From: Paracoccus methylovorus
GTDB lineage: Bacteria; Pseudomonadota; Alphaproteobacteria; Rhodobacterales; Rhodobacteraceae
Reading direction: 5' to 3'
Assembly (NCBI RefSeq): GCF_016919705.1
Contig: NZ_CP070368.1
Coordinates: 372,001-436,000, forward strand
DNA length: 64,000 nucleotides
Below the pieces are notes generated by a model. The model was not told the origin of the DNA. It did no database searches and worked only from the letters and a program-made list of their open reading frames with translations. Made by a program: the position numbers and the translations under genes. Positions within the stretch are counted from its first letter, which is position 1; each line of letters starts with the position of its first letter. Positions 44,674-45,696 of the stretch are shown piece after piece.

Positions 44674-44699
44674 GTCCCGCGATTAACCCGATAGCCCGG

Positions 44700-44745
44700 A
44701 AATGAAAAGCGGCGGCGCCCAGGGAGGAGGAGGGGGCACCGCCGC
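44700..44745 (-). terminator. Terminator formed by the last array hairpin
   Basis: The stem GCGGCGG-C/T-GCCC at 44709-44745 is followed on the minus strand by TTTTCATTT. It is the tenth stem-loop of the array and also the likely 3' end of the whole DUF1127-array transcript. Confidence 0.75.
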
Positions 44746-45128
44746 GCAACGCTGGCCCAGGGAGGAGGAGGGGCCGCGTATGGGGTGCGGCAATGGCAGG
44801 GAGGAGGAAGCCATTACCGCGTGCTGACGATCCCAGGGAGGAGGAGGACCGTCGCATTCCGTCCCGCACCGAGGCGGGGATTTTGGCAGCGCCCTCCAGG
44901 GAGGAGGAGGGGAGGGCGCTGCGCATAACGGGAAGCCCAGGGAGGAGGAGGGGCTTCTCCGTATAGGTTTGGCGGCATCCTCAGGGAGGAGGAGGAGGAG
45001 GCTGCCGCCGTAACCGCGAGACCCAGGGAGAAGGAGGGATCTCGCCGTATAAAGTGGCGGCACCCTCAGGGAGGAGGAGGGAGGATGCCGCCTGAACCCG
45101 GACCCAAGGGAGGAGGAGTGGGTCGGGT
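44709..45128 (-). ncRNA. Array of ten CcsR/cuckoo-type stem-loop small RNAs
   Basis: Ten tandem stem-loops occur at 45096-45128, 45056-45092, 45016-45045, 44971-45009, 44928-44962, 44886-44922, 44823-44855, 44787-44820, 44749-44779 and 44709-44745. Each has arms of about 8-12 bases that differ between units but pair within a unit, and each loop on the minus strand carries CCTCCTCCC or a close variant (the third reads CTCCTTCTCCC; the eighth begins with TT). This is the conserved loop motif of the CcsR RNAs of Rhodobacter sphaeroides, which are processed from a transcript with a DUF1127 gene. The loops resemble the anti-Shine-Dalgarno sequence. The period is about 42 bases. The array starts 10 bases after the DUF1127 stop. 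Confidence 0.85.
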
Positions 45129-45138
45129 GTTCCGTTTC

Positions 45139-45369
45139 TTATTTCGTTCCCCAGGCGGCTTCATAAGCCACGCTGCGGATATTGCTGCGGTTCAGGCCCA
45201 GGTCGTCCAGTTCGCGGGTCGACAGGTCTGCCAGTTCCCGCAGGGTCTGGCGATAGACCGCGCGGCGGGCCATATAGTCGCGGGCGTTGGCCACGAATTT
45301 CGCGATCGCGCCGTTGCCAGCGATGCCGTTGCGGTGCGTACCGCCATGGATCAGATCGAGAACAGCCAT
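45139..45369 (-). CDS. ccaF1: DUF1127 protein, CcaF1 homologue
   Basis: The 76-residue protein starts MAVLDLIHGGTHRNGIAGNG at ATG 45369; an in-frame GTG three codons earlier is less likely. The DUF1127 domain is in the C-terminal half: RQTLRELADLSTRELDDLGL followed by NRSNI. In Rhodobacter sphaeroides the matching protein CcaF1 binds RNA and affects maturation of CcsR and UpsM small RNAs. The gene heads the stem-loop array on the same strand, so both are expected from one transcript. Confidence 0.85.
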   Translation of the reverse strand: MAVLDLIHGGTHRNGIAGNGAIAKFVANARDYMARRAVYRQTLRELADLSTRELDDLGLNRSNIRSVAYEAAWGTK

Positions 45370-45432
45370 TTCATACACTCTTTCGTCTTGCGGATGGCGC
45401 GGTCGGTTTTTCCTGTCGCGCTGTTGAGAAGA

Positions 45433-45460
45433 ACATGGCCCTTTTTCTGCATCTGCACAA
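45433..45460 (-). promoter_or_regulatory. Candidate promoter for the DUF1127-array transcript
   Basis: On the minus strand TTGTGC and CCATGT are separated by 16 bases, 64 bases before the ATG. In Rhodobacter the equivalent transcript uses RpoHI/RpoHII promoters, and TTG with a C-rich -10 suits these. The match is only by eye. The rest of the gap 45370-45696 is AT-rich near 45520-45600 and has no credible gene; it should also hold the mrp promoter. Confidence 0.4.
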
Positions 45461-45696
45461 CGGCCGCGGGCGAGATGCTGCTATGCAGAATCTACATGGC
45501 TGTTTCGGGGACACTGTTACAAAGCGTTAATAATCCGCGAATTTTTCAGATATTTTACAAGCTCAATCAAGTTTCTCTAGCAGGTGAGTCGTATTTTACG
45601 CGGGGTCACAAGCGGTTAGCGGTATCAGTCCGAGACGCGACTTGCCGATCCCGGCTCAAATTGCCATGCTGCGGGCGCTTTGAACCGGGGGTTGCC

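Follow-up and report, generated by a model that had tools for sequence, protein, structure and literature searches.

A short gene for a DUF1127 protein lies on the minus strand of the window, by which we mean the whole 64-kb stretch of DNA that was analysed, and is followed on the same strand by ten hairpins, the first of which starts ~10 bases 3' of the DUF1127 stop codon and the last of which extends to 44709 (Table 1). Nine of the ten loops carry an exact CCTCCTCCC core, while the hairpin with its core at 45034 has CCTTCTCCC in its loop, which differs by one mismatch and is the sole inexact core. From core to core, the spacing along the array is 39, 43, 42, 44, 41, 63, 37, 39 and 38 nt, with the 63-nt step containing a small hairpin that lacks the motif. 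For the DUF1127 gene, the ATG at 45369 is a more likely start than the listed GTG at 45378. At the other end of the locus, hairpin 10 is a plausible candidate for a transcription terminator, with TTTTCATTT directly behind it; the terminator scan, whose limits do not allow for a loop of 13 such as this hairpin has, gave as its minus-strand match (44720-44707) a smaller stem inside the 3' arm of the same hairpin.

Table 1. Features of the DUF1127 locus in the window, with the related hairpin pairs found in phages.
Feature	Position	Strand	Core start	Evidence or remark
PhaR-like box 1, CTGCATAGCAG	45478..45488	-		matches published PhaR form; predicted
-35-like element TTGTGC	45455..45460	-		
Second PhaR-like box, imperfect, CTGCATCTGCAC	45447..45458	+		part of two-box pattern 45445-45490
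-10-like element CATGTT, 17 nt behind TTGTGC	45432..45437	-		conserved element
DUF1127 protein gene	45139..45369 (listed from GTG 45378)	-		PF06568, 46.5 bits, E 2.9e-12
Hairpin 1 (dimer 1, first)	45097..45127	-	45116	unit finder, covariation
Hairpin 2 (dimer 1, second)	45056..45092	-	45077	unit finder, covariation
Hairpin 3 (dimer 2), loop CCTTCTCCC	45013..45048	-	45034	unit finder
Hairpin 4 (dimer 2)	44971..45009	-	44992	unit finder
Hairpin 5 (dimer 3)	44928..44962	-	44948	unit finder
Hairpin 6 (dimer 3)	44886..44922	-	44907	unit finder
Small hairpin without motif, between dimers 3 and 4	44862..44880	-		
Hairpin 7 (dimer 4)	44822..44856	-	44844	unit finder
Hairpin 8 (dimer 4)	44787..44820	-	44807	unit finder
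Hairpin 9 (dimer 5)	44749..44779	-	44768	unit finder
Hairpin 10 (dimer 5), possible terminator	44709..44745	-	44730	unit finder; then TTTTCATTT
Phage-type pairs with CCTCCTCCC loops	L123, L127, L128, L136, L145, L155, L168, L172, L188 (viral contigs); L299-L301 (phage records)			

Across the whole window, the unit finder called no unit on the plus strand, and the ten units of the array were its only calls on the minus strand, which bears out the preliminary description in its claims of ten hairpins with the motif or a near match in the loop and of a minus-strand array. When the 440-nt array was subjected to 500 dinucleotide shuffles, a mean of 0.26 units and a maximum of 2 were found versus 10 in the real sequence, while 20 shuffles of the whole window gave a mean of 2 units and a maximum of 4. 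The fold z-score of the array was -11.4, and a hairpin's own 3' arm was the best partner of its 5' arm in all but units 2 and 4 (8 of 10). The 5' arm of hairpin 2 (45081-45092) is perfectly complementary over 12 nt to the 3' arm of hairpin 4 (44971-44982), so, judging by this match, the two hairpins could swap arms. The nine-base motif occurs in 24 exact copies genome-wide, nine of them in the array, versus 32 for the reversed control; since the motif alone is not rare, the evidence lies in its clustering and in the stems.

Among the dimers of the array, the covariation test covered the first, using 30 Paracoccus sequences that comprised the window and 29 of 30 distinct rows (L024, which has a shorter second hairpin, was left out by hand). 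In this set, 96.7% of 576 cells were paired and both sides had changed in 13 of 20 pairs, each of which was matched by 0 of 500 shuffles, while the number of further pair types was matched by 47 of 500 and slid partners left 38-54% of cells paired. RNAalifold kept the second hairpin in full and did not keep the first, where the alignment is gapped. The compensatory stem changes that had been proposed from the window are thus found on the first dimer as covariation among relatives.

The repeat unit of the array is the hairpin pair, as in the Rfam CcsR1 model, which describes a single RNA with two motif hairpins, and the window therefore holds about five CcsR equivalents rather than ten. In 22 Paracoccus arrays, the step from an odd to an even hairpin was ≤41 nt in 98% of 131 cases versus 30% of 110 even-to-odd steps; the corresponding values for 34 arrays of other genera were 83% of 154 and 17% of 133. 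The window has exactly one dimer fewer than the array of P. versutus, with the first dimer and the array end nearly identical, so one dimer was lost or gained between the two. A third, motif-free hairpin stands between some dimers, since a stem of at least 5 pairs was present in 88% of 74 distinct Paracoccus spacers and in 77% of 87 spacers between dimers of other genera, versus 24% and 40% of shuffled spacers, respectively, with a motif-like stretch that is possibly a missed unit in 6 Paracoccus and 5 other-genera spacers. A+T-rich linkers were considered as a mark of the dimer border and rejected on linker composition in both groups: the A+T content of linkers between dimers was not above that of linkers inside dimers either in Paracoccus (0.47 vs 0.52) or in other genera (0.39 vs 0.47), so composition gives no sign of cutting there. 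The "tenfold expansion" of the preliminary description had compared hairpins with RNAs; CcsR1 and RS0680a of R. sphaeroides each carry two hairpins, the latter being given two stem loops in the relevant part of PMC3927594.

Full-length matches to Rfam RF02791 (CcsR1) were obtained at dimers 1, 3 and 5, with scores of 50.3, 44.5 and 30.9 bits, so that the gathering cut-off of 65.3 bits was not reached in the window, and the best window match to RF02344 (ar14) scored 53.6 bits, under its cut-off of 58.8. Membership in either family by gathering score was rejected since all window matches fall below the cut-offs, and the Rfam hits that had been expected at all ten units failed to appear above threshold. 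The genome as a whole has five CcsR1 matches at E ≤ 0.001. The kind of locus that had been named, CcsR/cuckoo-type hairpins behind a DUF1127 gene, was supported: a short DUF1127 gene lies directly upstream on the same strand, and the hairpins combine CCUCCUCCC loops with variable stems. The locus is of the CIN1 type (a DUF1127 gene plus CcsR-like RNAs), which is an already known kind and carries this label in sections of PMC10253847.

Conservation in close relatives, which had been set beforehand as a refutation test, was found, with arrays read in 52 of the 61 genomes of the genus (a count that leaves out G041 and G055, among others). These arrays have 5-16 hairpins, with at least ten in 35 and an even number in 41, and, as cores with two or more mismatches escape the unit finder, some counts are too low. 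Ten is their median, so the survey removes the notion of ten units as exceptional and, with it, that of an expansion as a special event. DUF1127 lies upstream in 48 of the 52 arrays, and a profile search found no DUF1127 in the stretch around four (G021, G040, G044 and G050). One genome (G007) has DUF1127 without an array, five (G002, G013, G020, G033 and G054) yielded no more than isolated clusters of two or three hairpins, and G017 gave no CcsR1 match. At E ≤ 0.001, CcsR1 matched 60 of the 61 genus genomes, none over the gathering cut-off, and 163 of 198 family genomes (~one per genus), nine of them over it. A search of 14 control genomes returned one match, in Thermus composti and below the cut-off, and single weak CcsR1 matches therefore mean little. 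In other genera, 36 loci picked from the strongest CcsR1 matches and from loci of DUF1127 relatives have 3 to 17 hairpins; the array of G110, which we take to be R. sphaeroides 2.4.1, has 14 exact motif cores and a CcsR1 match of 106 bits.

The nearest relatives of the DUF1127 protein are from Paracoccus, that of P. versutus being 90% identical. An mrp-like gene is present within the stretch examined in 45 of 59 DUF1127-relative loci and an rlmJ-like gene in 31, and both are present in 15 of 15 of the loci L001-L015. At one locus (L108, G067:C6:19500-24000), 4.5 kb contain four DUF1127-like genes, and motif hairpins stand behind each of three of these; on the P. jeotgali plasmid pCBA4604-01, eight motif hairpins come after a DUF1127 gene (L302:2616-3138). 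Taken together, the array is real and well conserved, its unit number is average, and the locus is a standard DUF1127/CcsR-like one.

Among the regions upstream of the gene, 23 of 60 from Paracoccus and 15 of 36 from other genera contain the pattern TTG-N19..21-CATGTT, as does L100, a locus that we take to be from R. sphaeroides. A sigma-70 consensus promoter was looked for as well; its single hit (45579-45552) is not at the conserved element and was set aside. The likely single transcript for the DUF1127 gene and the array, put forward in the preliminary description, counts as supported.

A box of the form CTGCATRGCAG, which is the published PhaR form, lies 28-29 nt before the conserved promoter-like element. 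The PhaR site of R. sphaeroides is given as CTGCNNNGCAG in the portion of PMC12542648 that describes it, and the CTGCNNNGCAG box expected of a PhaR regulon member is present in the promoter region here (45478-45488). Among distinct upstream regions, in which distinct means not identical so that near relatives are counted apart, a PhaR-like box is present in 48 of 60 from Paracoccus and 16 of 37 from other genera, the first match always being CTGCATAGCAG or CTGCATGGCAG, while three scrambled palindromes were found in 0, 0 and 0 of the Paracoccus regions and 0, 0 and 1 of the others. The exact box is absent from 12 of the 60 and 21 of the 37 regions, and the box of L100 is imperfect. In the 21 Paracoccus and 7 other regions that have both the box and the TTG-N19..21-CATGTT element, the box is always 28 or 29 nt upstream of the TTG. 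Of 61 Paracoccus genomes, 8 contain the two-box pattern and none contains its reversed control. In the genome of the window (G000), it is found only at the DUF1127 locus (45445-45490) and at phaP, where phaC and phaP flank it. Four further genomes (G056-G059) have it at the DUF1127 locus and at a second place, and G011, G031 and G048 have it only away from that locus. The genome has a phaR gene (PF07879, PF05233). A literature search for PhaR and DUF1127 together gave no title on such a link.

We examined start sites that could pair with the loops. GGGAGGA followed by ATG at Shine-Dalgarno distance occurs 92 times in the genome, versus 5 times for the reversed pattern. Of these sites, 34 were read, namely 30 that are all on contig C1 and four chosen for a 9-nt match; 28 of them open a frame of ≥60 aa, or 25 without two repeats and one site antisense to the array. 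Solute-binding proteins of transporters account for 7 of the 25 (six by Pfam and one by NCBIfam TIGR03863). The four sites outside the array with a 9-nt match gave no pattern (transposase-like, DctP, and frames of 17 and 21 aa). Five GGGAGGA-ATG sites lie inside a single methanol/formaldehyde region of 11.5 kb (L338, G000:C1:2124800-2136281), where they surround a PQQ methanol/ethanol-family dehydrogenase and belong to S-(hydroxymethyl)glutathione synthase, a methanol-related c-type cytochrome, a PQQ-system ABC binding protein, an SRPBCC-type protein and a 192-aa protein. When the 31 distinct sites on contig C1 were placed at random, an equally dense cluster arose in 3 of 5000 trials; since the cluster was noticed afterwards, it is only a lead, albeit one consistent with the effect on C1 metabolism in R. 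sphaeroides. The predicted targets of NfeR1 are, in the passages of PMC10746234 that list them, mostly ABC transport systems. The earlier suggestion that each unit has its own targets found no support, as the loops are nearly identical and as, in the part of the same paper on NfeR1 silencing, that RNA silences ntrB at its translation start through any of three loops whose motifs are reported to be redundant.

A second pair of CCTCCTCCC hairpins in the genome lies on the minus strand at L080:3085-3157 (G000:C4, about 811084-811156). Two small genes flank it within a prophage-like stretch, and RecT-like, exonuclease-like and GapR-like genes are nearby. A very similar pair is present in the IMG/VR locus L158, and a comparison of the prophage dimer with phage records gave no match. 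The IMG/VR pattern scan returned at least 80 loci, at least 41 of them with two or more hairpins (26 with two and 15 with three or more among the matches listed). The three-hairpin loci for the most part look like rhizobial alpha-r14 and are possibly flanking host sequence; 6 of the 26 listed two-hairpin loci (L135, L151, L152, L167, L170 and L176) are covered by a frame of >200 aa and may therefore be chance pairs. In one phage two-hairpin type, represented by 12 sequences hand-picked as alike (three of them from the phage records phiLM21, RHph_TM3_3_3 and RHph_N28_2), 95.2% of 228 cells were paired and 11 of 19 pairs had changed on both sides, as in 0 of 500 shuffles; further pair types were matched by 49 of 500. 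The loops of phiLM21 and RHph_N28_2 are degenerate, and the unit finder does not call two units there. Seven loci of this type have an upstream gene in common, which is GapR-like in L127.

We tentatively propose, as a possibility that we regard as less likely to be right than wrong, that the PHB-sensing repressor PhaR controls the array through the predicted phaP-like two-box operator, so that PHB status would release about five CcsR-type RNAs silencing solute uptake and methanol/formaldehyde genes, with alphaproteobacterial phages carrying two-hairpin versions of what would be a carbon-storage-gated translation brake. If true, a PHB sensor before a broad anti-Shine-Dalgarno array would couple uptake and C1 metabolism to carbon storage in this family, in line with what is reported for CcsR and C1 metabolism; the phage-borne copies, if they hold, would imply that this generic translation-blocking device serves viruses too. 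The array itself is ordinary; what may be new is the possible carbon-storage switch and the phage hairpin pairs, and it is the candidate operator and the copies in phages that most merit testing.

As to how the locus works, we think it likely that it is a CIN1-type Paracoccus operon in which one promoter drives the DUF1127 protein and an array of five two-hairpin units that is processed to anti-Shine-Dalgarno RNAs. By analogy with R. sphaeroides and S. meliloti, the array would be expressed, processed and used to silence targets. One promoter would give a transcript for the small DUF1127 protein and the RNA array directly behind it, probably ending in the terminator hairpin. This stress-type precursor would probably be cut between units, as RNase E and CcaF1, itself a DUF1127 protein, mature the CcsR RNAs of R. 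sphaeroides, to yield ~80-nt RNAs presenting loops such as CUCCUCCUCCCU. By base-pairing with purine-rich Shine-Dalgarno sequences, the loops would reduce the translation of a group of mRNAs that probably includes those of transporter binding proteins and C1 genes, and changes of unit number by whole dimers would set the dose. Published CcaF1/CcsR and NfeR1 work backs this proposal, as far as the relevant passages of PMC10253847, PMC8307010 and PMC10746234 go. Counting against it are the Rfam matches below cut-off, the linkers without an A+T signal, the four of 52 arrays for which no DUF1127 was found, and the possibility, raised in part of PMC12501420, that DUF1127 proteins work through contacts with proteins and not on RNA.

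The near-identical loops on differing stems, together with a unit number that varies from 5 to 16 in Paracoccus, would also suit a long, largely unprocessed sponge whose ten loops titrate ribosome-binding purine stretches or the DUF1127 protein, with loop number as the function. We consider such a sponge unlikely, since the strict dimer layout suggests two-hairpin products and the R. sphaeroides CcsR precursor is described as processed in the pertinent section of PMC10253847. A role mainly in cis, with the array serving as a 3' UTR element that either protects the DUF1127 mRNA or makes it less stable and that does little in trans, is quite improbable: although the array begins so close behind the stop codon and DUF1127 precedes most arrays, two- and three-hairpin loci exist without DUF1127 in the stretch examined, phages included, and the loop is kept despite stem variation. 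That purine-poor repeats merely resemble hairpins by chance, or that the array is a piece of a protein gene, is hardly credible; a listed 126-aa frame does cross the array (44683-45063, minus), but the shuffles and the arm specificity contradict such an origin, as does conservation of the array behind DUF1127, and the covariation effectively refutes it.

The operon that we favour resembles the ccaF1-CcsR1-4 operon of R. sphaeroides, in which a DUF1127 gene is likewise followed by RNAs with CCUCCUCCC loops and two motif hairpins per RNA, and the TTGTGC-N17-CATGTT element is shared with L100, the locus presumed to be from that species. The two differ in stems and spacers, in that the CcsR1 matches of the window are below gathering score, and in the PhaR-like box, which is perfect in the window and imperfect in L100. 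With the CIN1 locus and the cuckoo RNA family (Reinkensmeier and Giegerich 2015), the window shares a short DUF1127 protein gene with CcsR-like hairpins; it differs in its ten hairpins, as the cuckoo family is reported to have 2 to 4 adjacent hairpins. The rhizobial NfeR1/alpha-r14 RNAs and SmelA075/SmelA099 differ in having 3 or 4 hairpins per RNA, according to the parts of PMC3927594 and PMC10746234 that describe them, but have in common with the array the loop motif and, probably, the mechanism of blocking Shine-Dalgarno sequences.
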